Shown here in pieces: positions 1-43,200 of a stretch of 46,660 nucleotides of DNA; positions within the stretch are counted from its first letter, which is position 1, and every line of letters begins with the position of its first letter. Under the pieces are notes generated by a model. The model saw nothing but the letters and a program-made list of their open reading frames with translations, was not told the origin of the DNA and did not search any database. The position numbers and the translations under genes are program-made. The DNA comes from a virus, in IMG/VR virus record IMGVR_UViG_3300046822_000295, positions 1 to 46,660 of that record; one strand, 5' to 3'.

Positions 1-130
1 GCGTTGAAGCCAGCGCGCGCGGCGCTGCCAACGCGCGCAATCTGGCGCCCGGTCGAGTCGTAGATGCTCGTCGCCACCTAGAAGCTAGCTCCGGGGTTGG
101 TGATTCTGGGCTTGAACGTTGGCGCCGGCG
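1..130. repeat. Contig-end direct repeat (circular closure), left copy
   Basis: Positions 1-130 match 46531-46660 at 129 of 130 bases; the only difference is T at 120 against G at 46650. The repeat spans the junction of two late genes: the start codon of the 376-residue internal protein (77, or 46607 on the right) and the end of the 237-residue protein at 78. Both genes become intact only if the contig is circular. I read this as assembly overlap of a circular or circularly permuted map rather than a true terminal repeat. Confidence 0.9.
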
Positions 131-791
131 CCAGTGGCGGCCGGTACGGCGCGAGGCCGGAGCCGGAGCTTGGCCCCTGCCCCGGCTTGAGCGGGCCCGG
201 AGCGCCGGGAATGGTTCCCGCTGGCGGCAGCATCCCGGGAATCCCGGGCTTCGGGCCGCCGGCAGGGGCCATCACGTTCGGCGTTGCTGGCGTGCCCCAC
301 AGCGACGAGGTGGCCCCGGCGAGGTCAATCATCGAGTTCCAGAACGTCTGGTCCTGCGAGTCGGCGCGCTGCGCGGCGGTGTTGGCCGCGCCCAGCTCGG
401 CACCGAATAGCGTGTTCTGCTTCTCCTTGCCCGTCGTGTAGAGCTGGTTCGCCTCCTCCGTCGCGCCCTGCTCGCGGCCCTGTGCCTCGGTCGCGGTGGC
501 TTCATCGGCGAGTGCCGCAGCAGCCGGGCCCTGGAGATTCCGAGCAAGAATCTGCCGTCCTTGCTCTGCTCGCTGAATCTGGGCGGCGCGTGCGGCACTC
601 CCCGAGACCTCGGTGCGGGTGCGCGCCGCCGCCGCCCGGTCCTCCGGGCTCAGGTACGCGCTCGGGCCCTCGTTTCGGTAACGCTGGATGATGCCCTGGA
701 TGTTCGGGGTCCTGGGACGGTGGTGGAACAGGCCAGCCGCTAGCGGAGCCAGCGTGCTCGCGACCTTGGCAGCGCCGAGGAGTGGCAGCAT
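78..791 (-). CDS. Putative internal virion / ejection protein (237 aa)
   Basis: This 237-residue protein has a small hydrophobic N-terminus (leucine- and alanine-rich, residues 2-22). An alanine- and glutamine-rich, probably helical middle follows (about 50-150), and the last 80 residues are rich in proline and glycine. I do not recognise a family. In short-tailed phages this place, after nozzle and fibre genes and before very large internal proteins, is usually held by internal core or ejection proteins, so that role is inferred from position only. Its ATG shares one base with the upstream TAA (TAATG). It ends in TAG inside an AGCTAGCTTCTAG context, and the next gene's GTG follows directly. 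Confidence 0.5.
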   Translation of the reverse strand: MLPLLGAAKVASTLAPLAAGLFHHRPRTPNIQGIIQRYRNEGPSAYLSPEDRAAAARTRTEVSGSAARAAQIQRAEQGRQILARNLQGPAAAALADEATATEAQGREQGATEEANQLYTTGKEKQNTLFGAELGAANTAAQRADSQDQTFWNSMIDLAGATSSLWGTPATPNVMAPAGGPKPGIPGMLPPAGTIPGAPGPLKPGQGPSSGSGLAPYRPPLAPAPTFKPRITNPGASF

Positions 792-1183: not shown

Positions 1184-1191
1184 GGTGCCTC

Positions 1192-1896
1192 CTACGTCAA
1201 CTTGAGATAGAGCACGTACAGCGAGCCGGTGAGCCGGTTGCTGCCATCCATCCCCGCGCCGGTCAGGTAGGCTTCGAGAACCACGTAGGTCGCCGATGGG
1301 ATGGCGCCGATGCCGATGCCCGCAGGGTCTATCATGGCGTCGTACATCCGCACCACGTCGTTCGGCGTGGGCGTGGAGTCGTAGATGGTGGCGACCACCC
1401 TGAACTGGTAGTTGCCGGCGACGATGGTGGGTACGACCGACAGGGCGGCGAAGGTGGTGGCGGGCGCGGAGTCGCTGGTCGTGGAGTACGACCGCGCGGC
1501 GGCAGTCACTGGGATGTTGCCCTGGCCGCTCAGAATCTCGAGCTGGGCGAGCGTGATGCGGCTGCCCCCAACGGCCGTGAGCTTCGCCTTGGTGATGATG
1601 CCGTCCTTGATGTGGTTGGCGGTGCCCACGGCGGCGTTCGGCGAGCCAGCGTTGGCGTCGGCGAGCAGCACGCGCGAGTCCACCGCCCCGGTCTCCATCT
1701 TGGAGACCGGCACGCGCTCGCCCTGGTTGCCGGAGAGCTGCGAGCCCTTGATGCCTGCGGAGGGCGACAGGTTGTCGGTGGCTAGCTGGCCGTTCACGAT
1801 GTCGGCGGTGGCTTTGTCGTTCGCCAGCACCTGGGAGCCGAACGCGGTGTCGGTGCCATCCACAAGGTTGTTCGGAATCACGACTTGGGGCGCCAT
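1192..1896 (-). CDS. Putative tail fibre / receptor-binding protein (234 aa)
   Basis: The 234-residue protein starts with a short leader of the kind seen in tail fibre N-termini (MAPQVVIPNN). It continues with serine-, glycine- and alanine-rich segments containing repeated polar turns (for example NLSPSAGIKGSQL, and a stretch ending in NHIKDGIITKAKL). The C-terminal half is beta-rich, consistent with a trimeric fibre tip. It is translationally coupled to the nozzle gene upstream (ATGA overlap). Fibre assignment rests on composition and position; no family was recognised with certainty. Confidence 0.55.
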   Translation of the reverse strand: MAPQVVIPNNLVDGTDTAFGSQVLANDKATADIVNGQLATDNLSPSAGIKGSQLSGNQGERVPVSKMETGAVDSRVLLADANAGSPNAAVGTANHIKDGIITKAKLTAVGGSRITLAQLEILSGQGNIPVTAAARSYSTTSDSAPATTFAALSVVPTIVAGNYQFRVVATIYDSTPTPNDVVRMYDAMIDPAGIGIGAIPSATYVVLEAYLTGAGMDGSNRLTGSLYVLYLKLT

Positions 1897-4034
1897 CAGG
1901 ACATTCTCCTTTCAGGCAGCAATAGCACATCGGCGGCGAATCCCTTGAACTGAAAATCGCCGGCACAGTTGGCCGTCACCGTGACCCGGTAGCGCGTGCC
2001 GGTGAGCCCGGGCCGAAGTCCCGAGAACGGCGACACATCGGCCTGCTGGCCCCACTTGAACGTGCCCCACAGGGGTCCCGAGCCCCACTTGATGCCGGAC
2101 TGGGTAAGCAGGGCCGAGAACGAGCGCGAGTCGGGGTTCGGGGAGACCTGGAGCGACAGGCTCATGTTGGTGTCCACGCCCGAGAAGGCGAACGCCTCGA
2201 GCCGCTCGTACATCTTGAGCACGTCCGGGGTGCCGTCGTCTATCCAGGGCGTGATGAGCTGGACGCGGACTGCGGCGCCCGCGCTGCCGTCCGTGTGCTT
2301 CTCGTCGCCGAACCCGTACAGCGCCATCCACGTCCGGTAGTCGCCGCCACCGAAGTCGCGGGCGTCGGCCATCAGGATGGTCTGGGCGTCGCCGAAGCTG
2401 GCCCCGCGCTGCACCAGGATGTCCTGTGCGAACCAGTTCGTGAACTTGGTCCAGCCGCCGAAGCGCTGGTCGTAGACCATGAACGAGTCGTTGCGCGCGC
2501 CGCCGGTCGAGAACGACACGAGCAGGAGCTGGCCCAGGTAGTTCTTCACCACCACGTCGCCGAACCGGGTCTTGTTCATGGCGTCGAAGATGTGCCCAAT
2601 CTCCTCCCAGCCGAAGGGCTTCACCTCGTTGCCGACAATCTGGTGCAGGCCGGCGTCGCCGAAGAACCAGACGACGCCGCCCATCGCACCCGCGCAGCGC
2701 GGTCCCGCAGCTCCGGCTCCCGTGTAGATGGGGACCTGGATGAAGCTAGCTGCGTCGAAGCCCTCGAGCGCCCATACCGACCACTTCTTGAGGATGATGA
2801 GCCGGTCGTTCTGGCGCACGACAGCCTGAATCGAGTCGCCGTCGTCCTTGCCGAAGTCGTAGGCGACGAGCGCGTTCCAGTTGCACACGCCGGTGGCCTC
2901 GAGGTCGCCGATGGCCTGTGACGCATAGAGCGTCGAGCCCGCCCAGCCGAACAGCCGGTCGCGGTGGGCAATCACGCCCTCATAGTGCAGCGGCTCGCCG
3001 TGCTTGATTTCCGGGTCGGTCTGCGCCCCCATGGCCGAGTCGGCGAACTTGTCGCTGTACGTGCTTCCGGTGCCGTCGATGACGAAGTACCACGGCCCTT
3101 GCGCGTTGCCACCGGGCTTCGTGCGCTCGAGCGTCCAGCCCACGTAGTCGGAGCGAGCCTCCTGGACGATGTTGGTGATGTCCGCGCGCTGTGCCGCCGC
3201 CGCCGTGGTCGCGGTGACGGCAGCCGAGGCGATAGAGGAGCCGTTCCTGTAGCGGTAGCGCAGCCGCCAGAAGTAGGGGTTGGACTGGGTGAGGCCGCTC
3301 GTGGCGTCGTTGACGAGCGTGATGGTCATGGGCGCGCCGACGCCCAGGCTAGCTGCCTCGTAGTAGACCGTGGGGCTGCCGATGGTGAGGCGACAGTTCG
3401 GGACCGTGATGCCGCCGATGTTCAGGACGGCGACGCCAGAGGCCGTGGGGTTCGGCGCGATGCTGATGGTGTTGGCGCCGCGCACGACCGGGGCGGACAC
3501 GGTGGTGGCGCCGCCCAGCGTGCCAGCGCCGCTGATTTTAGTCACCGTCACACCGCTGGCGATGTCCATGAACGCCGGACGCGGCAGCGTCATGTTGTGC
3601 CAGGTGTCGGTCGGGTTCAGGACCGAGAAGAACATCGGCGGGTTGGTCGTGCCGAGCTGCGTCGCCCACAACACGTCGTTCAACTGGTCCCAGCTCATGC
3701 GGTTGCTGAGATGGAGCGCGTAGGGCGTCGTCTGCGCCGTGAACGCGCTCGCGGTCATGCGATTCAGCACGCCCACCGAGGCGTCCTTGCAACCCTCGAA
3801 GATGCGCGTCGTGCCGTCCGAGCCGATGTATTCCATCAGCGTGTGCGGCTCTTTCGTCAGCGTGGCGCTACAGGCGCGTTGGCTGCCGGCGCGGACCTTG
3901 ACGCCACCGAAGGGGCGCAGCAGCACGTTCTCCGCGACCGAGAGATGGCGCGCGCGGCGGCCGTAGTCCGAGACGCCGCCGACGATGCCCTTGGAGAAGT
4001 CGAGCATCTTGCTCGCGTAGCGCGGGCCAGCCAT
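1896..4034 (-). CDS. Tail nozzle / tail tubular protein B-like (712 aa)
   Basis: This large beta-rich protein of 712 residues follows the adaptor gene, the usual place of the nozzle (T7 gp12-like) in short-tailed phages. The N-terminus has a feature typical of such proteins, DFSKGIVGGVSDYGRRA followed by a statement of 'initial values' (ENVLLRPFGGVKVRAGS), where repeated blades follow. Later segments such as NDRLIILKKWSVWALEG and GGVVWFFGDAGLH resemble propeller blades. The start is ambiguous: GTG at 4037 overlaps the upstream stop as GTGA, and the next codon ATG at 4034 gives TGATG; I chose ATG. Confidence 0.75.
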   Translation of the reverse strand: MAGPRYASKMLDFSKGIVGGVSDYGRRARHLSVAENVLLRPFGGVKVRAGSQRACSATLTKEPHTLMEYIGSDGTTRIFEGCKDASVGVLNRMTASAFTAQTTPYALHLSNRMSWDQLNDVLWATQLGTTNPPMFFSVLNPTDTWHNMTLPRPAFMDIASGVTVTKISGAGTLGGATTVSAPVVRGANTISIAPNPTASGVAVLNIGGITVPNCRLTIGSPTVYYEAASLGVGAPMTITLVNDATSGLTQSNPYFWRLRYRYRNGSSIASAAVTATTAAAAQRADITNIVQEARSDYVGWTLERTKPGGNAQGPWYFVIDGTGSTYSDKFADSAMGAQTDPEIKHGEPLHYEGVIAHRDRLFGWAGSTLYASQAIGDLEATGVCNWNALVAYDFGKDDGDSIQAVVRQNDRLIILKKWSVWALEGFDAASFIQVPIYTGAGAAGPRCAGAMGGVVWFFGDAGLHQIVGNEVKPFGWEEIGHIFDAMNKTRFGDVVVKNYLGQLLLVSFSTGGARNDSFMVYDQRFGGWTKFTNWFAQDILVQRGASFGDAQTILMADARDFGGGDYRTWMALYGFGDEKHTDGSAGAAVRVQLITPWIDDGTPDVLKMYERLEAFAFSGVDTNMSLSLQVSPNPDSRSFSALLTQSGIKWGSGPLWGTFKWGQQADVSPFSGLRPGLTGTRYRVTVTANCAGDFQFKGFAADVLLLPERRMS

Positions 4035-4708
4035 CACACCTGCCCGTCAAAGTAGCTGTTGAAGCGGCCCCTCGCGCGGAGGTTCGGGCGGCGGTCGCGA
4101 CCACGGTCCTCGAACGTGTCGCGGCTCTGCGTCATGCTCCCGACCCACTCCTGCTCGCGGGCCTGCGCCTCGTCCAGTCGGCGCTGGCGCTTCAGGAGGT
4201 GGATGATGATGCCCTCGGTCAAGAGGTCGCGGCACACGTCTGGGAACGCCGTCGTCTCCGTCGTCGGGTCCACCACGTCCGGCGGCAGCCCCCAGTACCG
4301 AATCCTCCCGCCGGAGACGAGCGTGGCCGCTGGCGCCGGGTAGAGCTGGAAGTAGCCCTGGCGCACGAAGTAGTGCTTCGTGTCGCCCGTCGCCGTCTGC
4401 CGGTTCGTGACCTGCGCGTGCTCGTCCTCGAACAGCTCCTTCAGCTCCCAGTAGCTGTAGAGGTCGCTGGGGGTGAGCGTCGCGTACATCTTGCGGACGC
4501 CCTTGCAGTCGTCGGGGAGCCGGTAGAGGTCGGAGTTCGCCACATGGTCGAAGAACGCCTCGTACTCGATGACGTTCAGCCGGATTGCGACCTTCTGCGC
4601 GGTGCGGTTGTAGAACGAGAGCTGCTCGTCCTGCGGGATACTGCGGGCGCCGGGGTCGGAGAGACCGATGAGCGCGTCGTTCAGGATTTTCTGGACAAGG
4701 AAGCTCAT
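4034..4708 (-). CDS. Head-to-tail adaptor / tail tubular protein A-like (224 aa)
   Basis: A 224-residue, largely helical protein. Its N-terminal part (residues 1-70) reads like adaptor proteins that dock under the portal: a helix, an IPQDEQLSFYN loop, and then RLPDDCKGVRKMY, reminiscent of the 'LP.D...v..v' signature of T7 gp11-like adaptors. The C-terminus is arginine-rich. It lies directly between the 270-residue virion protein and the nozzle, with ATGA and GTGA overlaps on both sides. Function follows from this order plus general resemblance, not from a database hit. Confidence 0.7.
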   Translation of the reverse strand: MSFLVQKILNDALIGLSDPGARSIPQDEQLSFYNRTAQKVAIRLNVIEYEAFFDHVANSDLYRLPDDCKGVRKMYATLTPSDLYSYWELKELFEDEHAQVTNRQTATGDTKHYFVRQGYFQLYPAPAATLVSGGRIRYWGLPPDVVDPTTETTAFPDVCRDLLTEGIIIHLLKRQRRLDEAQAREQEWVGSMTQSRDTFEDRGRDRRPNLRARGRFNSYFDGQV

Positions 4709-5517: not shown

Positions 5518-5521
5518 GGGG

Positions 5522-5977: not shown

Positions 5978-5995
5978 TTCGCCTCCTTGAACCAA

Positions 5996-6033: not shown

Positions 6034-6049
6034 GGGGGTGTGCGGTTGG

Positions 6050-6611: not shown

Positions 6612-7658
6612 CTAGCCGGACAGAACAGCGGTGGTCGTGACCTGGTTGATGACGCCACTCGAGCGCCGCTCATCGAAGCACATCTCGCCGCGCCAGAAGA
6701 TGTAGGCGACCCGAGCATCCTGGTCGATTGGCTTGCGCCAGTCCTCCATCTCCATGTTGCGACGCGGGTGGACCCACAGCCCCAGCGACTCCTCATCGAT
6801 GAGGTAGACCTTCTCGACATCGGAGGCGCGCGGAGCGCGCTCGTCGGCGACCCATGGCGCGGAGCGGTACATCAGGTTGCGGAACCCCGCCTTCGCCAAG
6901 TCCGTCTGCTGCTGCGGACGGTCGTAGCGCTCGTTGCGCGCCATCGAGTTGTGGAAGTCGCTCCACGCTCCCCAGTTCGACAGGATGATGCTCGGCTGCT
7001 CGCCCGAGCGGAGCGCGATGCGGCCCCACATCTTCGACACCGGGTTGTCCTGGGCGTACATGAACGTCGCCCCGACGCTGCCACAGGTGTAGCCGGTGCC
7101 GTCGTTGTTGTGCTGCCACCAGCCGTTCGGGTCCGACGCCGGAAGCGAGCCGCCGGCGAGGATGCCGCCGTAGCTAGCTGACGCCGGGAACTGCTGGCCG
7201 TTCGTGTCCTTGAGCGCGTACTGGAGGCCGGTGATGGCCTTCGGGTTCGAGCCGTCGTTGTAGAGGTTCGTCCCGATGAGGTCCACAGCCGTGCGCTCCG
7301 CAATCCGCATCTTCTGCGCGACCAGGTTCATCACCGCCTCGGGGCCGGTGACAGCCAGCTCCTCGTCGGAGTCGATAGCCACCGTGACCTGGGCGTTCTT
7401 CGGGAAATACTGCGCGGCCTTGATGGGGTTGCGAACCGACGTGTCGAACTTGTCGGTGCCGCTGTACCACGAGCCGCCGCCGCCTTCGGGAGCGAACGAG
7501 AGCGGGACGACGATGGTCGGGCCACCGGTCCAGTCGCGCACTCGCGACTTCCACCTGTAGAACAGAGCGTTCGACAGGAAGAAGTTGTCCTTGAGCTTGG
7601 GGACGTGCTTGTTCCGCGCCAGCGCGGAAACCATGTCCCAGTTGATGGTGTACGCCAT
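6612..7658 (-). CDS. Major capsid protein (348 aa)
   Basis: The 348-residue product follows the scaffold-like gene and precedes the decoration-like gene, the usual capsid order. The N-terminal arm, the extended loop (residues 48-75, glycine-rich, WTGGPTIVVPLSFAPEGGGG) and the following long spine helix region (VTGPEAVMNLVAQKMRIAERTAVDL, which I split here as VTGPEAVMNLVAQ and KMRIAERTAVDL) fit an HK97-type coat protein. The ATG at 7658 has AAGGAG nine bases upstream, but that site lies in a small hairpin (7665-7679) that could limit initiation. Confidence 0.8.
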   Translation of the reverse strand: MAYTINWDMVSALARNKHVPKLKDNFFLSNALFYRWKSRVRDWTGGPTIVVPLSFAPEGGGGSWYSGTDKFDTSVRNPIKAAQYFPKNAQVTVAIDSDEELAVTGPEAVMNLVAQKMRIAERTAVDLIGTNLYNDGSNPKAITGLQYALKDTNGQQFPASASYGGILAGGSLPASDPNGWWQHNNDGTGYTCGSVGATFMYAQDNPVSKMWGRIALRSGEQPSIILSNWGAWSDFHNSMARNERYDRPQQQTDLAKAGFRNLMYRSAPWVADERAPRASDVEKVYLIDEESLGLWVHPRRNMEMEDWRKPIDQDARVAYIFWRGEMCFDERRSSGVINQVTTTAVLSG

Positions 7659-12202: not shown

Positions 12203-13989
12203 CGAAAGCCTCCGAGGCCATTCCGTTGGCGGGCCTGGTCTCTGCGAGTCGCGTAGTCGTCCAGCTTCGCGATTTCGTCAAAGGTCATAACCCCAAGGTC
12301 GATGTCCGACGACGACTTGCCCATGCTCTGGCGCGCCAGAATCTCGCGGTAGAGCCCTGGCGCTGTCTGTATCACAGCGAGCGGCAGCGGCTCCAACGTA
12401 TTCTCGAACCCGCCCGAGTGGCTGTAGAGCGCCATCGCCATCGCCATGGTCAGGTCCATGAACTCGCCGTCCGGGTGGTCCACGCGGTCCACGCCGGAGG
12501 ACATCTTGTCGTAGTAGAGCGTCTGCCACTCGCGAATCATGCGCGGGTCGAGGCACTCCCCCGACTTCTCGCGCACGTAGCGGCGCACGAGGTTGACCAA
12601 GTTGGTGCGGTTCTCGCCCGAGGTCCACACCCCGGGCTTGTCGGTGAACCGGCCAGCGACGCTCGTCTCCGAGACCCGGCGCATCTGGATGTTCGGGTAC
12701 TGGATGTGCTTGATGAGTTCGGCGTGGAACTCGATGCCGTGGTTGTTCGCCTCGGCGGCGATGCGGCCGCCGTTGTACCACCACGCGGCGGCGGCGGCCT
12801 GACGCGCGCACAGGTCGGGAGGGGTGCGCGCGTAGTAGATGGCGTCGATGCCCAGCGTGTGCTGGTTCAGCGCCACGCCCGGCGACCAGTCGCTGCCGGG
12901 GTCGCCTTCGGAGAGGTCCCAGCCGAAGATATACATGTGCCGCGCGATGGGCGGCACGTAGATTTTCCAGCGGCCGCCCTTCACCATCCGCACGATGGGG
13001 TTCTTCTTGTCGGCGGGGTTGAAGTCGATTTCGCAGTCGTCGGGAATCTTGTTCTCGCGCCCGGCGTACTCGCTCGCCTCGATGTAGTGGCGCAGGCCCT
13101 CGGTGTCGAACACCTTGCGCCCCGACGCGAGGAAGCAGTCGGCGTCGTTGCACGGGTATTCCTGGTCCATCTTGTCCTGGTCGCCGGAGCACTTGTTCGT
13201 GCGCGTCCACACGTACCACGCCATCTGCTCGAGCGTGAGCTTGTAGCGCGCCATCTTCTCGCGGTCCTTATCAGCTAGCTCCTCGACCGCGTAGATTGCC
13301 CGGCGCTGGTACGTCGGGTCCTCGAACCACGGCACGAAGAACGGCACCCAGTCGTTCTGCCCGTGCACAGCGGCGACCCAGTTGTTGTGGAACCAGTTAC
13401 CGACGCCGTTCGCCGTGCTCTCGGCAATCACCAGCGAGTCCACCTCGTCGGGCACGACCTGTAGGATGGCGTTGAAGAAGTCGTCGGCGTTCTCGATGAA
13501 CGCGGCCTCGGAGATGTGCACGCGCTGGCCGGTGAACCCGCGCGACTCGCCCGCGACCTCGACCTGCATCCGCGAGTTGTTGTGCGCGAAGTGAATCACG
13601 CGCTTGGTGTTGTAGCGTCGCTTGGGCTTGATGCGCTCGGGCAGGTTGTCGTAGAAGCGCTGCGCCATGCCGAACAGGTACTCGCTCGACTCGGCCTTGT
13701 GCGCGGCGACCAGGGCCTGCTGGTTCTTCTTCAGGTGGCAGTCGCGGAACAGCTCCGCTTCACCGAACGTCGAGAACCCCTGCTGGCGCGCCTTCAGAAT
13801 CATGATGCGCGGCGGCCTGCCGGCGGCGCGCTCGGCGTCGATGACCTGGGCCAGCCGGCGCTGCGATGGCCGCATCACGAACGGAATCAGCTCGCCGCCC
13901 TTCTTGGGGCGGATTTTGAGGCAGAGCCGGAAGTAGAGGTCGCGGTTCTGTGCCAGGTCCGCGTTCGAGACCCTTGCCGGCTCTGCCAT
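12199..13989 (-). CDS. terL: Terminase large subunit, DNA-packaging ATPase/nuclease (596 aa)
   Basis: The motor that drives DNA into the prohead and cuts it. The ATPase half has a phage-type Walker A (LKARQQGFST, residues 65-74), a Walker B-like strand with acidic residues (RVHISEAAF, about 156-164) and a coupling motif (IAESTA, 188-193). The nuclease half shows RNase-H-fold acidic positions: D358 in GWDLSEGD, E413 in AAEANNHG and D512 in GEFMDLTMAMA. Length is normal for the family. It overlaps the next gene by ATGA. The preceding zinc-motif gene stops 3 bases before its start. Confidence 0.92.
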   Translation of the reverse strand: MAEPARVSNADLAQNRDLYFRLCLKIRPKKGGELIPFVMRPSQRRLAQVIDAERAAGRPPRIMILKARQQGFSTFGEAELFRDCHLKKNQQALVAAHKAESSEYLFGMAQRFYDNLPERIKPKRRYNTKRVIHFAHNNSRMQVEVAGESRGFTGQRVHISEAAFIENADDFFNAILQVVPDEVDSLVIAESTANGVGNWFHNNWVAAVHGQNDWVPFFVPWFEDPTYQRRAIYAVEELADKDREKMARYKLTLEQMAWYVWTRTNKCSGDQDKMDQEYPCNDADCFLASGRKVFDTEGLRHYIEASEYAGRENKIPDDCEIDFNPADKKNPIVRMVKGGRWKIYVPPIARHMYIFGWDLSEGDPGSDWSPGVALNQHTLGIDAIYYARTPPDLCARQAAAAAWWYNGGRIAAEANNHGIEFHAELIKHIQYPNIQMRRVSETSVAGRFTDKPGVWTSGENRTNLVNLVRRYVREKSGECLDPRMIREWQTLYYDKMSSGVDRVDHPDGEFMDLTMAMAMALYSHSGGFENTLEPLPLAVIQTAPGLYREILARQSMGKSSSDIDLGVMTFDEIAKLDDYATRRDQARQRNGLGGFR

Positions 13990-17387: not shown

Positions 17388-17389
17388 GG

Positions 17390-18526
17390 CTAGTTCACCT
17401 CCGGTGCAACGGGTGCGTCTCCGACCGAGGGGTCGGTGATGATGCCGGTGGCGCTCTGTAGGTTGCGGTAGGTCAGGAGCGACGGGCTGTTGCCGTTGTT
17501 GTTGCTGGTGCTGTCGAGCGGGTTGTTGCTGCGCGAGCGCCAGCGGGCGCAGCGGGTGTCGGCCACGTCCCAGGTGATGCCGGTGCCGTCGCCGTTGGCG
17601 CCCTTCTGCTTCAAGAATCGGTTGCCGTAGATGACGCCGCCCGCGCCGCACTGTTGAATCAGCAGCGCGCGCGTCGGGCCGTGGGTGCCGAACGCCGGGT
17701 TGCCGTAGATGTCGGACCCTGCGGTGCCGCCGTAGCCTGAGTTGAACCAGTTTCCGAGAATCATCGTGGGCGCGGTCATGTTGACGAAGTTCACCATTGC
17801 GTCCTTGTCGATGTACGCCTCGATGTTGTTGCCCTGGACCGTCGCGCCCTCGACGCCGTTCATCTCGATGTCGCGCCCGACGTTGCTCTCGAAGCTGCAC
17901 CCCTGGACCAGCGTGTTGCTGCTCTGGGTCAAGTAAAGGCCCTTGCCCTGGCAGTTCTGGAAGCTGCACCCGATGAACTTGAGCGTGGTGTTCGTGGGCT
18001 GGACGGGGGGCGAGCCGTAGGGCGGCACGGTGCGCTGGGCGCGCCCGGCGGCCGTCTGGGCGAAGGTGAAGAAGCTGTCGCGCACGGTGATGAGGATGGC
18101 GGCGTCGATGAGGAGCCCGATGTCGCCGCCGTAGGTCATCACGTCGCTAACGACGCACCTATCCACCTTGTTCGCGGCGGAGGTCCACGACAGCTTCAGG
18201 CAGTAGGCGCTCGTGAGCGGGCGGACGATGGTGAGGTTCTTCACCCGGCAGCGCCCGGCGTTCACGAACACGGAGCCGTCGATGATGGTGCCCTCGGCCG
18301 ACTCGCCCTCGAGCGTGGTGCCTCGGTTCGAGAGCGTGAGGTCGCCCCGGTAGATGCCGCGCCCGAGCTTGACCGTGCCGCCCGGCATCGTGAGCGATGG
18401 GTTGATGGGCGGATAGCCGAAGCTAGCTATCCCCGGACTCGTGAACGAGTCGAGCGCCTTCTGGATGGCAGAGCTTTCTTGAATCGAGACGTTGGCGACT
18501 GCGGTGCCGCCGTAGAACGTGCTCAC
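17390..18526 (-). CDS. Beta-helix tail spike-like protein (378 aa)
   Basis: The gene starts at GTG 18526, overlapping the protease stop as GTGA, and encodes 378 residues. After a helical leader (residues 10-35) the sequence shows parallel beta-helix rungs: GIYRGDLTLSNRGTTLEGES, GRCRVKNLTIVRPL, TTLKFIGCSFQNCQGKGLYL and GCSFESNVGRDIEMNGV. Such proteins bind or cut host surface polysaccharide. An AGCTAGCT site at 18421 is read as Ala-Ser. Acidic residues on the rungs could be catalytic, but none can be assigned by eye. Confidence 0.7.
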   Translation of the reverse strand: MSTFYGGTAVANVSIQESSAIQKALDSFTSPGIASFGYPPINPSLTMPGGTVKLGRGIYRGDLTLSNRGTTLEGESAEGTIIDGSVFVNAGRCRVKNLTIVRPLTSAYCLKLSWTSAANKVDRCVVSDVMTYGGDIGLLIDAAILITVRDSFFTFAQTAAGRAQRTVPPYGSPPVQPTNTTLKFIGCSFQNCQGKGLYLTQSSNTLVQGCSFESNVGRDIEMNGVEGATVQGNNIEAYIDKDAMVNFVNMTAPTMILGNWFNSGYGGTAGSDIYGNPAFGTHGPTRALLIQQCGAGGVIYGNRFLKQKGANGDGTGITWDVADTRCARWRSRSNNPLDSTSNNNGNSPSLLTYRNLQSATGIITDPSVGDAPVAPEVN

Positions 18527-19832: not shown

Positions 19833-20415
19833 CGGACTCCTCCCTCGGTTCCATCCTCCGGGACTCCCGCCACCTGGTCCCATCGCACGGGACTCCTACC
19901 ACACCGGGCACACTTCCCCCGATGCGTTTCACTCCGCCCGCTGCCAGGTCCCATCGGCCGGGACTCCTGCGGTCCCCTTCGGGTCCCTCACTCGCCCGCC
20001 CTGTCGTGGCGTCGCGTCAGTGTAGGTGACGGATGACTGACTGCGCCGGCCTCGCGGCGGCGGCCGGGACCCGCGCGGGTGGGGTCGCCCGCGAGCACGC
20101 GAGCATGAGGCGGGAGGGTGTGCGCGGGAGGGTGCGAGCGCGTGTGTGCGTGCGCGGATGGGCTTCGCCTCTCCCCCGCATTGGCGTGGGCCGCAACGCC
20201 TTGCGAGCGCGCCGCGTCATGCGCCGAGCGGGTGTGTGCGATGCGTCGCGGAGGACGGGGGGTCCGGGGCTGTAACCTAGTGTCGGCCAACAAGCTAGCT
20301 CTGTCCAACATTTTCTCTGAATCCCGCCGCTAGCTGCCGAATCTGAAGTGGCCCAACGAGTTTGCTGCGGTTCGCCGGATGGGCCGGTGGCCGGTTGGGA
20401 CAGGAGGACTTGGGA
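19833..20415. other. Main divergent intergenic region, right half
   Basis: This stretch of 583 bases holds the operator-like dyads, then a very GC-rich part with alternating purine-pyrimidine runs (around 20130-20150) and a perfect 12-base palindrome ACCCGCGCGGGT at 20069-20080. An AGCTAGCT site lies at 20293 and a near copy at 20329. A 12-base word, TGCCGAATCTGA (20335-20346), recurs at 22999-23010 in the other plus-strand leader. No gene is supported; the rightward promoter should be here but I cannot pick it out. Confidence 0.55.
19847..19968. promoter_or_regulatory. Three operator-like dyads upstream of the 78-residue gene
   Basis: Three 22-base units (19847-19868, 19876-19897, 19947-19968) share an inverted core GTCCC-N7-GGGAC; the first has GTTCC in one arm. 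Cores lie at 19848-19864, 19877-19893 and 19948-19964, so core starts are 29 and 71 bases apart. On the minus strand each unit also resembles AGGAG-spacer-ATGG, so copies of a translation start region are an alternative origin. Confidence 0.55.
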
Positions 20416-20419
20416 ATGA
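20402..20419 (+). promoter_or_regulatory. Shared 18-base ribosome-site/leader motif, copy 1
   Basis: AGGAGGACTTGGGAATGA contains the Shine-Dalgarno and the ATG (20416) of the AAA+ gene. It is repeated base for base at 23094-23111 before the second plus-strand cluster. Its core GAGGACTTGGG also occurs twice, inverted, upstream of the RecT-like gene. Confidence 0.7.
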
Positions 20420-22829: not shown

Positions 22830-22937
22830 TCACGGGCGCGCACGCTCACACAGGTGCGCGCCCGTTCGTGTGTGCGCTCGCGCGCATCACGCGCGCCTGG
22901 TTGCGCGCGCGCGAAAGTAGCTAGCTTGCTCGGCGGC

Positions 22938-27386: not shown

Positions 27387-27745
27387 GCCGGGCCAGGAGA
27401 CTGAAGAAGCTAGCTCCACAGCGAGACGACGGCGCGCTGAGTCCGAGACTCTCTCGACTCAGGAAGCGGCGGCGCGTGGCCTGTCGCGCGCAGCACTGGA
27501 GGCGGCTGCTGGCGTCGGCGAAACTTGAGCCGTGGCGTCGGCCGGTGGACCAGAACTGCCGAGTGGCCTACGTGATTGGGCGGTGCAGCGAGTGCAGAAC
27601 CAACGCCCTCGCCTGCGCCGCCGTGACCGACCAAGAGGCAGACGAGAGGCGCGGCCCACACGAGCTGACGGAGCTGCTGATGGAGCGGCTAGCCACGGCC
27701 TACGAGACGTTCCGGTTCCTGGTCACGCCTCGGAGTCGGCGCTAG
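27383..27745 (+). CDS. Basic hypothetical protein, end of the rightward block (120 aa)
   Basis: 120 residues, arginine-rich throughout the first 60, with Cys at about 60, 69 and 72 (CRVAYVIGRCSECR, a partial zinc site). It ends in CTAG, the same four bases that end the converging exonuclease gene. An AGCTAGCT at 27408 is read as Leu-Ala (CTA GCT). Confidence 0.5.
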   Translation: MSRARRLKKLAPQRDDGALSPRLSRLRKRRRVACRAQHWRRLLASAKLEPWRRPVDQNCRVAYVIGRCSECRTNALACAAVTDQEADERRGPHELTELLMERLATAYETFRFLVTPRSRR

Positions 27746-28455: not shown

Positions 28456-28981
28456 CAGCGGCCTCCTTCCTCTCTGCGGCGACGCGGCGGTAGCTCGCCC
28501 GGCGGTGCTGGTCCATCTCCGCCGGGTGCGCGCGTCGCCACTTCTCGTTATAGGCTTTGACGCGAGCCGCGTTCAGCAGGTTCCAACGTCTCCGTATAGC
28601 TCGGGCGTGTCTCACCTGGCAGAGCGGGCACCTGACGGCGTTGGCGCCACCGATGTAGCTAGCTCCGCAGGCACAGGTTTGTTTGTGGTGGTACGGCCCC
28701 TCGGTCTTGAACACCCGGCGCGCTCGGTTGCCGGTGCCGGCCATCACGTTCTTGTAGTCCTGGTCGCGCACGCGCTCGCCCGGCCGCAGGCCCAGCCACG
28801 CGCGGCGCGCGATGCGCTCAAGCCGGCGCGCGCGGTTCAGCGCCCGCTTGTAGCAGCGGTAGTGGTAGCGCGGGTGCCTGCCGTGCTGGCTCGGGTTGTC
28901 GAGCGCAGGGTCGAGCAGGTCCTTGAGGCAGTACCTACACAGTCTCTGTCGGGGCAGGGGCGGGCGGCCTAGCTTCCCCAT
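28355..28981 (-). CDS. Zinc-motif basic protein, nuclease-like (208 aa)
   Basis: The 208-residue product is very rich in Arg and contains CRYC (15-18) and, later, CACG with CPLC (about 108-111 and 121-124), forming likely zinc knuckles. A helix-rich RRRWNLLNAARVKAYNEKW follows. This pattern recalls phage HNH/endonuclease VII-like proteins, but I see no His-Asn-His, so the label is tentative. Its last 35 codons run over the start of the exonuclease gene. Confidence 0.5.
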   Translation of the reverse strand: MGKLGRPPLPRQRLCRYCLKDLLDPALDNPSQHGRHPRYHYRCYKRALNRARRLERIARRAWLGLRPGERVRDQDYKNVMAGTGNRARRVFKTEGPYHHKQTCACGASYIGGANAVRCPLCQVRHARAIRRRWNLLNAARVKAYNEKWRRAHPAEMDQHRRASYRRVAAERKEAAAVQASYRRRDQSRAPRLPRGGPVDAARPGPEAA

Positions 28982-30644: not shown

Positions 30645-32321
30645 CTATGCGTTCACGTAGAAGCGGGCGTCTTTGCCCGGAACAGACACGACCTGCTCGA
30701 TGGCACCGTTGTTCACGCTTGGAAACTGGCTGCCGGTGATGCGCTTGTACGGCCGGCCGAGGTCGATGTTGTGGGCGATGGTCGCGTCGCCGTTCACCGC
30801 GACGATGCCGTTCTGGAAGCGGCGCAGGTAGCAGCCGGTTGTGCCAGTCGAGTGCCCGGCTTCGAGCGGCATCCCGAGCCAGCCCATGTGCGCCCCCGTG
30901 GCATCCGAGACGCCGCCCGGCAGCACCACGCTGTATTCATCGGCCCACCACAGCGCCGCCGTGGCGTCGTGGTTAGCCTTCCACATCGTGTGATAGCCGC
31001 CGAGGATGCACGCCGAGCCGAGGCCGAAGCGGCTGTTCTTCTCCCAGATGCCGGAGCCGGGCGTGTTCGAGTCCTGCTGCTCCGACTTGATGAGCGTGGT
31101 GCCGAAGCCGGTGGGGTTCGACGTGACCCACGGACGGGACATCGCGATTGCCATAATCTGGTCGAAGCTGAAACCGGCGTTGAATGGCGGGGCGCCGGCC
31201 CCAGCGCCCTGGTCCGGGTCCCACGACTCGTACAGCTCTCCGGTCATCTTGAACGCGGTCGCGTCGTCTAGCTGTACGGTGAACATGCCGCGATTGAACC
31301 AACAGAGCCCGGTCCCGACCATCGCGTTCACGAACGCCTGCGTCTCGACCATGGCTGCGGCGTTCATCGCTGCGACGTTGGCGTAGCCGGTGGTGCGCGC
31401 AACGTCCACGGTCGAGTTCCACGGGGTGCCGTCCAGCACATCGAAGAAGTAGCCGTCAGCCTTGCCCTGATTGAACTGCTTCCACAGGGCGGCAAGGGTC
31501 GTTCCCAGCGGCGTGTGGCCCTGGGTTCCGCCGCTTCCCATGTCGTAGAACAGGCCGCCGAGAGCGGCCGGGTCTCCCGACTGGTACGCGACTCCGAACG
31601 GCGGGTTTCCGTTGGCCGAGTGCGTCGAGTCGTAGTAGGTGCGTCGGTCGGGCGGCCCGAGCACGAGCAGCCATATCTGTCCCGCCAGCGTGTTGGACGA
31701 CAGGTTCTGGGTGACGTACTGGTGCAGGTCGTAGATGAGGACTTTCTGCGTGGGATGGATGCTCGCGGCGCGGATGCGCGAGACGACGTTCTGGTTAGAC
31801 GGCTGCCCCGTGTTCGTCCACGGCGCCGAGGTCACGGTCACAAGGTGCCGCTTGCCGAGCGCGGTGATGATGCTTTGGTCGAACACGCCGGGAGAGGTCA
31901 TCAGCGGCGTGCCGTCGCTGCTGTTCCCCTGATAGCTCCAGATGAGCGGAAAGCCGTCCGCAGGCGCAGCATCACCCACGCCGTGCCGGCGGCGCGCGCC
32001 GAGGTTCAGGTTGTCGTAGTCTACCTTCGCGCCGGTGAAGTCGGCGCCCATCATGTTCGACTCGCTCGTGTTGGCGTTGGTGAGGTCGGCGTGCGAGAAG
32101 TTGGCGTCCCGAGCGTCGGAGCCGCTGAAGTCGGTGTCGCACAGCTTGCAGCCGACGAAGCTAGCTTCGCGCACGTCAGCCTTGCTGAAGTCGGCTTCGC
32201 GCAGGTCCTGCCCGCTGAAGTCGCGGCCGCGCAGGTCCTGCCCGCTGAAGTCGGCGCGCTCGCCCTCGGTCTCGCCCTTCAGGTAGGCGGCGTGGCTCTT
32301 GAAGATTGCGGCCAGGTCCAT
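30645..32321 (-). CDS. Pentapeptide-repeat / glycoside-hydrolase-like fusion (558 aa)
   Basis: Residues about 24-99 are about 15 pentapeptide repeats of the A(D/N)F/LxX kind (ADFSGQDLRGRDFSGQDL), which form a quadrilateral beta-helix. The rest (about 110-558) looks like a TIM-barrel glycoside hydrolase of the hypothetical GHL type: strands KVLIYDLHQYV and GYFFDVLDG (D about 294), acidic GELYESWDPD (E about 362/365) and a terminal RRFQNGIVAVNGD. It sits inside the recombination block rather than with the tail genes. Hydrolase assignment is tentative. Start ATG 32321 (GGAGG nearby). Confidence 0.55.
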   Translation of the reverse strand: MDLAAIFKSHAAYLKGETEGERADFSGQDLRGRDFSGQDLREADFSKADVREASFVGCKLCDTDFSGSDARDANFSHADLTNANTSESNMMGADFTGAKVDYDNLNLGARRRHGVGDAAPADGFPLIWSYQGNSSDGTPLMTSPGVFDQSIITALGKRHLVTVTSAPWTNTGQPSNQNVVSRIRAASIHPTQKVLIYDLHQYVTQNLSSNTLAGQIWLLVLGPPDRRTYYDSTHSANGNPPFGVAYQSGDPAALGGLFYDMGSGGTQGHTPLGTTLAALWKQFNQGKADGYFFDVLDGTPWNSTVDVARTTGYANVAAMNAAAMVETQAFVNAMVGTGLCWFNRGMFTVQLDDATAFKMTGELYESWDPDQGAGAGAPPFNAGFSFDQIMAIAMSRPWVTSNPTGFGTTLIKSEQQDSNTPGSGIWEKNSRFGLGSACILGGYHTMWKANHDATAALWWADEYSVVLPGGVSDATGAHMGWLGMPLEAGHSTGTTGCYLRRFQNGIVAVNGDATIAHNIDLGRPYKRITGSQFPSVNNGAIEQVVSVPGKDARFYVNA

Positions 32322-36432: not shown

Positions 36433-36445
36433 GGCCACCTCCTTG

Positions 36446-36811: not shown

Positions 36812-37248
36812 GCTACCTCCTTGGCCTTCACCGCCGCCTTCCAGTCCCGGCGCTCGAAGTGCGGCCGGTCCCAGGTGAACTTGTCCGCTACGCCAAGCGG
36901 GCCACCCCACGACAAGCCCAAGCCTTCGCCGATTTCGCCTATCTCCTGCCAGCGAAGGTTGCTCTGTGGGTAGGGCTCTCCTCCAAGGAAGCAAACGTCG
37001 AACGCCATCCCATAGTTGTGTGGCGACTCGCCGGGCATGGCCTTCGTGACGACGTGGCTGGGGTCCACGATTATCCATGAGCCGTCCTCCTGCTGGACGC
37101 GGCCCTGTTGGTACAGGTGAAGCTGTTCCCCAAGCGTCCGCAGAGTATGCGTCACCCGGAGCAGAATGGAACGTTGAGCACACATCGCCATGAATCGCTT
37201 GCACTTGGCCTGCGTGATGGGCTCCAGGTCATCGACCCTATCGCTCAC
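36808..37248 (-). CDS. Endolysin, M15-type peptidoglycan peptidase (146 aa)
   Basis: Cuts cell-wall peptide cross-links to release progeny. The LAS-type metallopeptidase motif SPHNYGMAFD (75-84) supplies zinc ligands H77 and D84, and WDRPHFE (126-132) supplies the third, H130; a glutamate near residue 107 is the likely base. The rest is a single compact domain, normal length for VanY/L-Ala-D-Glu peptidases. No signal peptide, so it relies on a holin. GTG start in GTGA overlap with the giant gene. Confidence 0.85.
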   Translation of the reverse strand: MSDRVDDLEPITQAKCKRFMAMCAQRSILLRVTHTLRTLGEQLHLYQQGRVQQEDGSWIIVDPSHVVTKAMPGESPHNYGMAFDVCFLGGEPYPQSNLRWQEIGEIGEGLGLSWGGPLGVADKFTWDRPHFERRDWKAAVKAKEVA

Positions 37249-40200
37249 TTCGCCCCCTTGATGATTTTGCGCCGCTTCGCTTCCTCATCGGTCGGCGTGA
37301 GCCCCAGATTACCCTTGACCATCTGGACCGCATCACGATTTTGCACGTAGCTGCGCGTGCCCACCACGTCGGGCACGGCCGTGCGCGCAATCTTCGCGGC
37401 GCTCGGGACCGGCCCCATCTCGACGGAGTTCTGAATCGAGCGCCGGAACGCCACGAGACCCGGGACCTGCTCGCGCAGGAACTCGGACAGCGCATCGCCC
37501 ACGGGCCGCGCCAGCTCGCCCGCAGCCTGCATGGGGCGCCCCTGCTTCGCGCGCTTCTGGGCGCGAGCCCAGGTGGCCGTCGTGTTCTCGGGGCCCAGGT
37601 ACTGCCACATCAGCCTAACTGCGGGTGACATTCCAGTTTCAACACCGCGCTCCGGGCTGACCACGGCAGCCGAGCGCGCCCGCTCCAGCGCCTTCGCGAG
37701 CTTCTTGTTGTGCGGGTCCAGCGAGTAGGCGAGCAGCGTCACCATCACGTCCCAGCCCGGCGTGCCGGGCAGCATGGCGTTGATGCCGGTGGCCTCCGTG
37801 AGCGCGTGCATGAGGCCCACGGTGACGGCCTGCGTCATAAACACGCGCATCGCCTGGCGGTCGTGGAAGCGCGCGCCGTACTTGTCGAGCCAGCGCTCCG
37901 CGCCGTTGACCGGGGCCGGGTACTCGCCGCGCACGAGGTACTTGTCCTCGGTCGGCAGCGCGTGCAGGCGCGAGACCGCGCGCTCCGGGCGCGGCGCCAC
38001 CTCGCCGTACTTGCCGCCCGTCAGGGCGCTCGTGGCTCCGCGCGCCACGGCAGCGCCGACCTTGAGCGCGCCGCCCACCGGGCGCGTGACGTAGCGCGGG
38101 AAGAAGTTCGCCGGGAACGTCATCAGGCGGCCCAGGAGCTTGCCGGCGGTGCCGCCGAAGATGGGCGCCTGCCCGAGCGCGTTGTAGTCGAACATGGTCT
38201 CCGAATCGAGGATGGACTGGAGGCGCTCGGCGGTGCCCTTGGTCCGCATCGCGGCCACGGTCTTGGCCCAGTCCTCGAAGAACGGCGCGCCCAGCTCCTT
38301 GTGGAACTGCCACGCCACCGCCGGGTCGAGGCCGTAGCGGCGCGCCAGCACCTCGCTGCCGAGCACGTTCACGCCGCGCGTGAAGTCCTCAATCAGCCGG
38401 TAGCCGTACATGGGGCCGACCACCTCGGCAATCTTCTGGTAGGGCTCGAGCGTGGGGTGCAGGAGCTGCTCGCGCGCGGACATCACTTCGCCCTGGAGCG
38501 AACCGAGCTGCATCGCGCGCTGCTTCGTGTCCTGGAAAATCTCGCGGTAGCTAGCTGCGTTCTCGGGCGTGATGTAGCCGCGCTTCTCTGCCAGGTCCAC
38601 GATGCGGCGCATGACCTCGCCGCCGCCGACGCGCGCGGAGGCGTGCAGCACCGGCAGGATGCCGTACTCGGGCGCGCTCGTGATGTAGGGCTGGAACCAG
38701 TTCGCAATCATGGCGCGGAAGTTCCAGCCGAGCACGGCGCGCATCTGGTTGCCGCCCATCTGCCGGAACCACGCTGAGCCCGGCGAGCGCGCCGAGTCCT
38801 CGATGTCCTGCCGCCACGCGCGGTAGGCGACCTCCTTCGCCTGCTTGCCGGTCAGGCCCTCGGGGCGCGTCTGGAGCTTGCCGCCCGAGAGCGCCTGCGT
38901 CAGCTCGCGCGCGCCGTGGCCGATTTCGACACCGGCCTTGCCCGCCAGCTCGAACGGCTTCCTCAGCTTCGGGGACTCGAGGCCGGTGAACACCATCTCG
39001 CCCTGCGTGCCGATGAGCTTGCGCCCGAACTTGTCCGTGAGCAGCACCTCGGCGCCCTTGCGCGGCCTGCCCAGCAGGTCCTGGTCGCGGCCCGGCGAGA
39101 CCTCGAAGTTGACGCCCTCGGGCACGAGGAAGAACCGCTTGTATTCCGTGCCCAGCCGCGCGCCCATCTTGCGGGTGTCCTCGTTCGGGAACAGCATCTC
39201 GGCGGCGCGGCGCGGCGAGATGCTGGACGCCTGCGGCTCGTTCTTGGCGTAGAACAGCGCGCGCGAGGTGTTGTCGAGGATGTTGTCCACCTTCGTCTTT
39301 CGCCGCAGCAGCGTGGCCTTCAGCCAGTCGGCGACCAGCCCGGCGCGGATGGGGTCCTCGTTCTCCATGTGCGCGATGTCGCTGCCCAGCCGGCGCAGCA
39401 CCGGGGCCAGCGCCGAGTAGCGCGACATCACGGAGATGTAGGCGTCTAGCTGGAGCGCCGCGTCCTCGGTCCACCTGTCGTGGTTGTTGCGGTGCTCGAA
39501 GAAGCGGTTCCGCATGTCCTCGAGCGCCGCCTGCCGCTGCTTCACGTCCACGCCGCCCAGGAAGCTCTGGAGCAGCGAGTCCACCAGCTCCGACGCCTTG
39601 CCCGTAATCATGTGCGGCAGGTCGTAGCCCTTCAGCGGCTTGATGGGCTCCATGCCCATGCTCTTTCGCACCTTGTTCACGTAGTCGAAAATCTCGCTCG
39701 TGAGGTTGCGGATGGCGTCGGGGACATGCTGCAAGTCCTTCGGCAGGTCCTCGACCTTGGCGCGGCCCGAGAGCACGCGCGAGACGAGCTTCGAGTTGTC
39801 GGTGAACGGCCCCATCAGCCGCGCCGCCTTGTCGCCAATCAGTTCCATGCGCCGCCAGTTCCAGCGGTGCATGTGCAGCGCCTCCTCGGAGTAGCCGGCC
39901 TTCAGGTCGATGGCGTTGTCGCGCGGCAGCACGAAGTTGCCGCCCAGGAGCTTCGCGTGCGCCATCAGGCGCACCAGCGCCGACTCCGAGTAATAGTCGG
40001 GCTCGTACAGGCTCTTGCCTTCGTAGCGCTGCACGACGCGCCCCTGGGCGTCCACGGTCTTGAGTCGGTCGCCACGCGGGATGCGGCGAATCGAAGCGCG
40101 CATCACTCCGGGCTGGCCCTTCAGCACGTCGCGCCAGAGCTGCGGCAGCGCCGTCTCGGCGAGCCGCTTCTCGTCGTCGGTGAAGCCCTGGTAGCTGTGC

Positions 40201-43200
40201 ATAATCTGCGGCTCGGTGCCGGCGGGGATGTTGTCCACCGGGCTCTCGGGCCCCAGCTTCAGGTCAATCTCGTCCTTGATGTTCTGGAGGGTTTTCTCCG
40301 CCGGCACGCCGAGGCGCAGGCCCTTGGCGATGCGGTCGAACAGCTCGTGCGGGTTCAGCGACTTCTCCAGCGCCTTCGCGCGCTCGCGGTCGGCGCTGAC
40401 CTTCTCCGAGAGCTTCTTCACGGCCTCGGCGTCGCCGCCGGACTTCTCGATGGCCTTGAGCGCAGCTAGCTGCCGTGAGAGCGCCGTCTTGATGCTCTCG
40501 ACGTAGCGCAGGCCCCGGTTGGTCGCGTCCTTCACCTGCTGCGGCGTGAACCCGGCGTTGCCGAAGTCGTTGCCCATGTCGAGCTGGTTCAGCCGGTCCA
40601 GCAGCCCGCGCTCCTGCTTCAGCGCTGCCGCGAACTCGACGGCGCTGCCGTACTGCCCGTCGTTGATGGCGCGCATCGCCATGCGCTGGCGCACGCTGTT
40701 GAAGTAGTCGGGGTGCGCGGACACCGCAGCGCCCAGATGGCCGCCGTGGGTCCGCATCGCCTCGTCGGCGAAGAACTCACGAACGGCCGGGTCCAGGCGC
40801 CCGATGTTGGCCGCGCGCTCTGCCTCGGATTGCTTGGTTCCAAGAGCCGAGGCGATTTCCTTGACGCTCTTGCCCTCGTCAGAGAGCCGGCTCGCCAGCC
40901 GCGCGTCCTCGATGTAGCTGGTGCGCGCGGTGCGGCGGTTGGCGTACTCGGCAATCTGCTGCGCCTGCTCCGGCGTGACGAACACCTCGACCGCGTTCAT
41001 GCTGCGGTCGGCGCTGCCGGTACGCACGTAGTCCTCGCCGCGCTTGCCGAACGTGTTGCTGGCGAGGTAACGCCGGTGGTGCCCGTCGAGGATGTAGGTC
41101 TTGCCCGCCTCGCCGAAAGCGCCGGTCTTGTCGGTCCAGATTGTGACCGGCGACTGGTCCATCAGCGCCTGGTTGTAGCCGCCCTGCGGGTTCTTGGGGC
41201 TGGGCTCCAGGTGCTGCGAGATGACGCGCGGGTTGATGAGGTCGCCCTGGGTCACGCCCTCGCGCTTCTGGAACTCGGGCAGGATGGACAGGTCGCTCGC
41301 CTTCACCGTCCGCATCTGCGGCGGCGCCAGGTGCTCGCCGCCAGCGTCCTGCACGGCCTGCGCTGCGGCATCCGTCGCCATGTCCTTGGCGACCGCTGGC
41401 TTGTCCTCCGCCTTCTTCGGCTTCGGAATCTCGACGCCGGCAGCAGCGAACGCATCGCCCTGCCCGGCTTCAGCCAGCGCCTTGGCGCGCACGCGCGCGA
41501 CCTCGGTGTTCGGGTCGAATCCGTCCGGGACCTTGGCGCCGCTCTCCTTAGCCGCCTCCTCTGCGAGCGTGATGGGGCTGGTGTTGCGATTCATCGGGTC
41601 GCGCACCTTCTCCCAGAAGGCGTCGTGGAAGTCCTGCGCCGACTTCGCCTCCGGCGTTCCCATCTTGAGTGGCTTCGGGGTGCGCTCGCCCAGCCCCTCC
41701 AGCTCCTCCTGCGGCAGCTTCTTCTTCACCCCCAGCCTGGCGCGCAGCTCGTCGGAGACGAAGCGCGGGCCGCCCTGCTTCGCATAGCTGATGGTTGTCA
41801 GCCCTGGCTCGCTGGCGTCGGCGGGGGCCGAGCGTTCGAGCAGCTCGTCGCTGATACGCAGCAGCTCGGAGAGCGCGGTGGACTCGCCCGGCTTCATGCC
41901 CAGCAGGCGCCGCATGATGTCCACGAACGCGGTCAGGCCGTTCCTATGCGTCCGGTACTGGATGCTCTCCAGGTAGTTCTGGGCGCGGTGGTCGGTGAGG
42001 CCCCACGTCATAATCTCGTGGATGCCGCCGTCCGGGACGTGTGGCTCGAACAGGAAGTTGCTCTGCTGGAGGAACCTCTCCGTCTCCGCGCCCAGCGTTT
42101 TTGCAGCGGAGCGCTTCAGGGTCTCCTGGAGTACGTGCAGGTAGAGGCGCTCGAGGTCGGCGACGGCCGAGATAATCTGGCGCTCGCGATTGCTCCCGCC
42201 CAGTGTGGACTTTGGGTTCCGAAGCTCCTTCAGCCCCCAGTTGATAATCGAGCTGAGCGCCTGGTGGAGTTCCTCGTGAATCACGACTCGCCTGCCGACG
42301 CCGCGCGCACGAGCGAAGTTGCCGTTCAAGAACACCGGCTCCTCGTGGCGGCCGATAAGGCCGGGCGAGGAGATGTGGGCGCCCAGCGTGGCGTTGTCTC
42401 TCGCCATGGCGCGCAGGTCGCCGACAACCTGCGGAGTGGCAATCGCAGGCGGCAGCATGGCCGATAGCTCGGCCGGCTTCATGTCCTTGTGGACGAGGTG
42501 AATCTTGTTCTTCTCGACGTTCTGCTCGGTCAGCGACTCGCGGGTGCGGCGCGCAACCAGCTTCTCGGCCGGCGTGCCGTTCTGTTCGACCTCGCGCATC
42601 GCCTCCTCGGCGGTCTTGCCGTGGTAGTGGAGAACCGCGCGCGCCTCGTCCGCCGAAAACACCGGCTGGTCGCCCTGCGTGTGCTCCGCTCCGGGCTCGA
42701 AGCGGTTTATCTTCTCCTCTTTCGGCGCGAAGTGGCTCTCGATGAACTTGTCGATGATGAACGGTGGGGCGTCTGGGAACCGCTTCTCGAGTCGCTTCCG
42801 CATCTCCTCTCGGCTGTTGGGCGGCTTGCCCGCGCGCGCCATGCCCTGCACGGCCTTGAGCAGCGCAACATTGTCGTCGTGGCCGCCCACGTCCCAGCCG
42901 TCCTCGTGGAGCGCCGCGTGAACGAGCGCGTCTAGCTGCTCGTCGGTGGCGCCCTCGTTCACGAGCTTGTCCAGCTCGCCGGGGTAGTGCTTCTCGAGCG
43001 CGGCCTGGATGTCCTCGTGGCTGGGCTCGCCGGTGCGCTTCGGGGCTTCTGGGGCCTTCGGCGCCTCGGCCTTCGGCTCCCCCGCACGGCGTCGGGCTAT
43101 CTCGTTCTCGACTTCAGCAAGCCTGTCCGGGTGCCATCCCTCCCTGGCCCCCTTCAGTCGCATCGAGTTCAACTCTCCGTCACCGGCGTCGCGCACATGC

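Follow-up and report, generated by a model that had tools for sequence, protein, structure and literature searches.

The 46,660 bp viral stretch analysed here (IMG/VR record IMGVR_UViG_3300046822_000295, positions 1 to 46,660), referred to below in its full length as the window, contains the 8-base palindrome AGCTAGCT in an excess that is real, strong and lineage-specific, and that is like the highly iterated palindromes (HIPs) of cyanobacteria. There are 21 exact matches, and merging the duplicate in the terminal overlap (83 and 46613 are the same site) leaves 20 unique sites in 46,530 bp, a density of 0.43/kb (430 per Mb) or approximately one per 2.3 kb. Only 0.64 copies are expected under a trinucleotide (order 2) model and 0.86 under a tetranucleotide (order 3) model, giving an excess of 23- to 31-fold (Poisson P = 9e-21) and bearing out an initial annotation of this DNA, which reported 20 copies where fewer than one was expected. 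In the best explanation, judged to have about an even chance of being right, AGCTAGCT would be a HIP of a phage lineage, outside the known cyanobacterial setting, acquired from the HIP of a host that is absent among the genomes screened.

Frequency and placement of AGCTAGCT

Among all 8-mers of the window AGCTAGCT ranks first, and it is the sole outlier of the 256 palindromic octamers, the next-best having P = 0.05. A synonymous-codon shuffle of the predicted genes, which preserves the proteins and the codon usage and is regarded as a fair control, gave a mean of 0.17 copies within genes and 0.12 genome-wide, with a maximum of 2 in 500 shuffles, against 15 observed. This check, proposed in the initial annotation, excludes chance. 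The Leu-Ala pair CTA-GCT is seen 13 times where 0.5 is expected. The inner hexamer GCTAGC has 41 unique copies, the number first reported, but the dinucleotide expectation is 11 rather than approximately 16. Both outer bases, A and T, are present on 20 of these 41, in agreement with the suggestion that the flanking bases are selected. CTAG, which had been described as rare, is at expectation in the window (74 vs 75), though it is depleted in the relatives described below (43 vs 122 expected).

Fifteen of the unique copies lie wholly within predicted genes, one runs across a stop codon and the other four fall in predicted gaps (Table 1). Copies within genes occupy reading frames 1 and 2; frame 0 places an in-frame TAG and is seen solely as the stop codon of 22412-22792. 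Spacing is near random and slightly even (mean 2,326 bp, coefficient of variation 0.61; test for evenness, P = 0.014). A regular spacing for packaging or looping was rejected, as the sites are barely more even than random, and the packaging cue with regular spacing offered earlier is unsupported. Nor was the pattern of a parS or centromere-like site found, which is clustered, usually intergenic and near a partition operon, the copies being scattered over 46 kb and mostly genic. Binding by a nucleoid or partition factor, also among the earlier candidates, is a possibility.

Single-base deviants of AGCTAGCT are enriched at positions 1/8 only (16 vs 5.5, P = 2e-4), those at the inner positions (2/7, 3/6 and 4/5) being at 0.75-1.25 times expectation. 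The recognised core therefore seems to be GCTAGC, to which the outer A and T are added. Tandem duplication of AGCT was rejected as a source of the octamer, because genes would be thrown out of frame and because the copies in the window occur singly.

It is scarcely credible that the count is a statistical artefact made by codon and amino-acid preferences or by a repeated gene segment. Markov models of orders 4 to 6, the highest of which had been put forward as a check, do return 9 to 21 copies, but this test is circular because the words used in fitting are themselves parts of AGCTAGCT. The codon form of the argument is refuted by the synonymous-codon shuffle, the sequences flanking the 20 unique copies are mutually unrelated, and the copies in predicted gaps also stand against it.

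Gain in the window lineage and palindrome avoidance

A capsid protein search of IMG/VR returned only four relatives, with 79, 65, 63 and 58% identity (L005, L006, L007 and L196, respectively), and AGCTAGCT has zero copies in all four and likewise in the longer contigs behind them. In codon alignments at the window AGCTAGCT sites the residues differ in all relatives. At the capsid site (copy 4), Ser-Ala-Ser in the window stands opposite Ile/Pro/Thr-Gln-Thr or Ala-Thr-Thr in the relatives. Substitutions at variable positions of the proteins therefore created the octamers, and judged from these alignments the gain is specific to the window lineage. Absence from relatives with similar proteins had been named in the initial annotation as a result that would speak against the motif. 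They do lack it, but this is read as a lineage-specific gain and not as an artefact, because the codon and Markov controls still exclude chance. Peptide-pattern searches with the 539-aa open reading frame (ORF) 16350-17969, the terminase and the portal found no relatives. As the gain postdates the split from a relative with a 79% identical capsid, the lineage would be a natural system in which to ask whether repair bias or selection gives rise to HIPs.

Other palindromes have been lost from the window. GATC is absent where 190 copies are expected, and 18 of the 36 hexamer palindromes with an expectation of at least 5 are at no more than 10% of it, among them CCGCGG (0 of 63 expected), GAGCTC (0 of 27) and GCATGC (0 of 24). 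Tolerated palindromes such as CGCGCG, GCCGGC, CTCGAG and GTGCAC are near expectation. GATC is near expectation in the relatives (406 of 448), and heavy restriction avoidance is thus a trait acquired in the window lineage, unlike the four relatives. That many palindromes were purged yet one accumulated points to a positive cause for AGCTAGCT.

Avoidance might itself have produced the octamer if, under heavy restriction, near-miss sites drifted into a tolerated AGCTAGCT. The extent of the losses in the window would fit, as would those in a marine phage clade described below, which has no CCGG (0 of 207 expected) and is depleted in GGCC and GCGC. However, a 23- to 31-fold excess of a single word is not created by avoidance alone, the other tolerated palindromes stay near expectation with no other octamer palindrome enriched, and Anabaena phage A-4L (L232), with GATC at 0 of 90 expected, still has no enriched octamer palindrome. 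A by-product of this kind is very unlikely.

Comparison with known repeats and a possible host origin

HIPs have been described in cyanobacteria, and what they do is a matter of dispute. They include HIP1 (GCGATCGC) and the alternate forms GGGATCCC, TCGATCGA, GGCGCC, RCCGGY and GCSGC, which come with cognate methyltransferases; densities are approximately 500-2500 per Mb, and deviations are strongest at the first and last base (Elhai 2015, PMC4390886). Like these, AGCTAGCT is a palindrome found genome-wide, far above composition and codon expectation and dominant over other octamers, in single dispersed copies in genes and gaps, with one-off sites at the first and last base and a density of the same order, at the lower edge of the cyanobacterial range. 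Unlike them, it is a new sequence, seen in a phage, for which the screens described below identified no host, and a cognate methyltransferase was not found in the window. HIP1 has no copies in the window.

Closer parallels come from two phages that infect cyanobacteria. Nodularia phage vB_NpeS-2AV2 (KU230356) has 19 copies of HIP1 in 45 kb (0.17 expected, 0.42/kb) and Nostoc phage A1 (KU234533) has 27 in 50 kb (0.24 expected, 0.54/kb), and in both the HIP1 deviants are strongest at positions 1/8 (18 vs 1.1 and 11 vs 1.9, respectively). The density and the outer-base deviation pattern of AGCTAGCT in the window resemble those of HIP1 in this pair, and the description 'HIP1-like' in the initial annotation has proved apt, the scatter over genes and gaps and the independence from codons included. 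These phages differ from the window in keeping GATC (194 copies in A1 and 155 in 2AV2), and A1 encodes an annotated N6-adenine methyltransferase. The natural reading is that both took HIP1 from their hosts. Both the sequence and the setting of the AGCTAGCT repeat are new, and its known analogue is the HIP1 carried by such cyanobacterial phages. A match of AGCTAGCT as a text string to the literature returned, by title, nothing on phage or HIP repeats.

For a HIP-like repeat, methylation would be the best-precedented link (Elhai 2015, PMC4390886), and we infer an enzyme, methylation of the site and imprinting by a host. Round after round of replication in a host whose machinery marks or binds the GCTAGC core would let the octamer accumulate in the phage, most likely through a host DNA methyltransferase and strand-choosing mismatch repair, as in Elhai's HIP model. 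One-off sites would be turned into full AGCTAGCT sites and then protected, and the phage would thereby take on the HIP of its host, as may have happened in the phages of Nostoc and Nodularia. In a wider form, a host enzyme for GCTAGC or a core within it would act together with biased repair or selection. If the host were found, the octamer would predict that a methyltransferase or binding protein not yet described has GCTAGC as the core of its specificity.

Several results weigh against acquisition from a host. Approximately 1,600 screened genomes and a scan of 84,980 species yielded no bacterium with dispersed AGCTAGCT. No methyltransferase was detected in the window by Pfam, PHROGs, NCBIfam or motif search, though a missing phage enzyme does not exclude a HIP, as the enzyme would be expected in the host. 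Anabaena phage A-4L has no HIP1, so not all phages of HIP1 hosts carry it. A single NPPF was rejected as a methyltransferase motif IV, as it lies in the pentapeptide-repeat protein and lacks the hydrophobic strand of that motif.

A Chi-like role was also considered, in which AGCTAGCT would be a host recombination or nuclease-attenuation signal that built up in a recombining or exonuclease-surviving phage, the palindrome being active both ways. Chi sites include GCTGGTGG in Escherichia coli and AGCGG in Bacillus subtilis (PMC5101192). The even scatter on both strands and a weak RecT-like match in the window (34688-35947) are consistent with such a role. However, known Chi sites are non-palindromic, strand-biased and frequent in the host chromosome, whereas AGCTAGCT is a palindrome and the screens found no host in which it abounds, making this explanation improbable.

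Host screens and the marine clade

A pair-site screen of 1,305 genomes (296 Actinomycetota, 398 Pseudomonadota, 284 Myxococcota and 327 Acidobacteriota) found no dispersed AGCTAGCT. No genome had more than a handful of pairs, mostly in tandem repeats, except one with 11 from a tandem array; a host at window density was estimated to yield approximately 30-55. Direct counts in 289 Verrucomicrobiota were ordinary, Persicirhabdus excepted. This genus was rejected as a host, as its AGCTAGCT copies arise from a stronger bias towards CCAGCTGG/AGCTGG. In Persicirhabdus sediminis (G021, L241-L253) AGCTGG occurs 1013 times vs 181 in 258 kb and CCAGCTGG is also in excess, a possible HIP-like word in its own right. 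Myxococcota genome G1148 was likewise rejected, its 49 copies in 4.8 Mb being ordinary.

A triple-site scan of GTDB (84,980 species) gave 69 hits, which on inspection were tandem or interspersed repeats or local clusters. For a 5-Mb host the scan is estimated to return 0.4 hits at window density and approximately 2.8 at one copy per 1.2 kb, so that it would miss most single genomes at the former and approximately 6% at a HIP1-like density. By this estimate a large clade of AGCTAGCT-dense hosts is excluded, but an isolated rare host could have escaped. Halorussus halobius, Myxococcales, Tannerellaceae and Oscillospiraceae were rejected as hosts, as their sites are in tandem or interspersed repeats. 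In H. halobius (L008, L013, L040, L043, L052 and L058), a set of three copies, spaced 31-44 bp apart, is repeated at six genomic locations as an interspersed element. Five alphaproteobacterial contigs (L018, L024, L042, L050 and L064; Roseomonas, Devosia and metagenome-assembled genomes) carry local AGCTAGCT/CTAG/TAGCTA clusters resembling a regulator or partition site array. Assignment of a host from the phage proteins was rejected, as the nearest matches are distant and scattered: Mx8/Mx9 capsid (27-29%), an Arthrobacter phage cysteine protease (48%) and a Listeria-type endolysin (29%).

A second AGCTAGCT-rich group of phages was reached via a pair-of-sites scan of viral contigs and then extended to relatives by its CobT/VWA-type protein. 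It is called marine here on the basis of the sample series of the contigs, and includes L093, L152, G310, G312, G313 and others, as well as L205-L220, L222-L225 and L230-L231. Most of its contigs have 0.4-1.7 copies of AGCTAGCT per kb; there is a single copy in each of the outgroup contigs G311 and G314, and none in L221. Aligned copies are retained far more often than other 8-mers (38% vs 9% at 65-70% identity, 44% vs 17% at 70-75% and 69% vs 32% at 80-85%), in aligned pairs that are not independent. Like the window phage, the marine clade is rich in AGCTAGCT in a lineage-specific manner and strongly avoids certain palindromes. It differs in G+C content (46%, vs 67% for the window phage), in a broader AGCTA/TAGCTA core (185 copies of TAGCTA, 29 expected), in having runs such as (AGCT)4 and in avoiding CCGG, GCGC and GGCC rather than GATC. 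Between the window and five marine contigs, blastp at E 1e-4 found no protein in common, and the two are treated as convergent, separate systems. The TAGCTA/AGCTAGCT enrichment of the marine clade may be a second HIP-like case; a HIP of unrelated sequence in a phage, together with a separate AGCT-based one in this clade, would broaden the HIP phenomenon. Other GC-rich viral contigs with two close AGCTAGCT sites have 2-6 copies in 32-61 kb and are not comparable.

The marine clade bears on the main rival to a host-imprinted HIP, that AGCTAGCT is a phage-autonomous site bound by a phage-encoded condensation, segregation, transcription or recombination protein, is selected for that role and has no place in a host chromosome. 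The failure of the screens to find a host genome with the motif would be expected if this were so; retention of the word in the unrelated marine clade indicates that phages can keep such words, and residues 1379-1588 of the 2741-aa window protein match a ParB-like PHROG. On the other hand, the window and marine contigs have no protein in common and their cores differ, the four nearest relatives share the structural genes without the motif, and the sites are in coding sequence and not in promoters or a centromere-like cluster. An autonomous site has something like one chance in four of being right, and slightly more doubtful is the idea that AGCTAGCT is a genome mark owned by phages, gained independently by the window phage and the unrelated marine clade and kept, without a host counterpart, through selection for some phage protein or process, which would make it the first HIP-like element of viral origin.

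Site coordinates and other features of the window

Table 1. Positions of AGCTAGCT in the window and the predicted genes or gaps in which they lie.
Feature	Position	Location (strand)	Remark
Copy 1	83..90	gene 78-791 (-)	same site as 46613..46620
Duplicate of copy 1	46613..46620		inside 130-bp terminal overlap
Copy 2	2744..2751	virion structural gene 1896-4034 (-)	relatives use other codons at site
Copy 3	4869..4876	gene 4705-5517 (-)	
Copy 4	7172..7179	major capsid protein gene 6612-7658 (-)	encodes Ser-Ala-Ser
Copy 5	11281..11288	gene 11227-11667 (-)	
Copy 6	13273..13280	terminase large subunit gene 12199-13989 (-)	
Copy 7	14644..14651	gene 14566-14826 (-)	
Copy 8	15380..15387	gene 15122-15586 (-)	
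Copy 9	18421..18428	beta-helix protein gene 17390-18526 (-)	
Copy 10	20293..20300	predicted gap	
Copy 11	21129..21136	gene 20395-21531 (+)	PHROG 'porphyrin biosynthesis' (CobS-like)
Copy 12	22787..22794	gene 22412-22792 (+)	provides TAG stop codon
Copy 13	22919..22926	predicted gap	
Copy 14	27408..27415	predicted gap	
Copy 15	28657..28664	predicted gap	within uncalled 208-aa ORF 28355-28981
Copy 16	32159..32166	pentapeptide-repeat protein gene 30645-32321 (-)	
Copy 17	32940..32947	gene 32925-33620 (-)	
Copy 18	36211..36218	gene 36115-36438 (-)	
Copy 19	38549..38556	2741-aa protein gene 37245-45470 (-)	
Copy 20	40464..40471	2741-aa protein gene 37245-45470 (-)	

The CobS-like gene that contains copy 11 is of the AAA type and is followed by a DUF7192 gene (21534-22415, +). 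In the marine clade an AAA-type gene adjoins the CobT/VWA-type gene, with no detectable similarity to the window pair. Positions 1-130 and 46531-46660 agree in sequence except for one mismatch, at position 120, and this terminal overlap of 130 bp therefore indicates that the genome is probably complete, and circular or terminally redundant. The 2741-aa protein, in addition to its ParB-like segment, has a weak match to virion RNA polymerase at residues 1062-1217, and is perhaps an ejected polyvalent protein.

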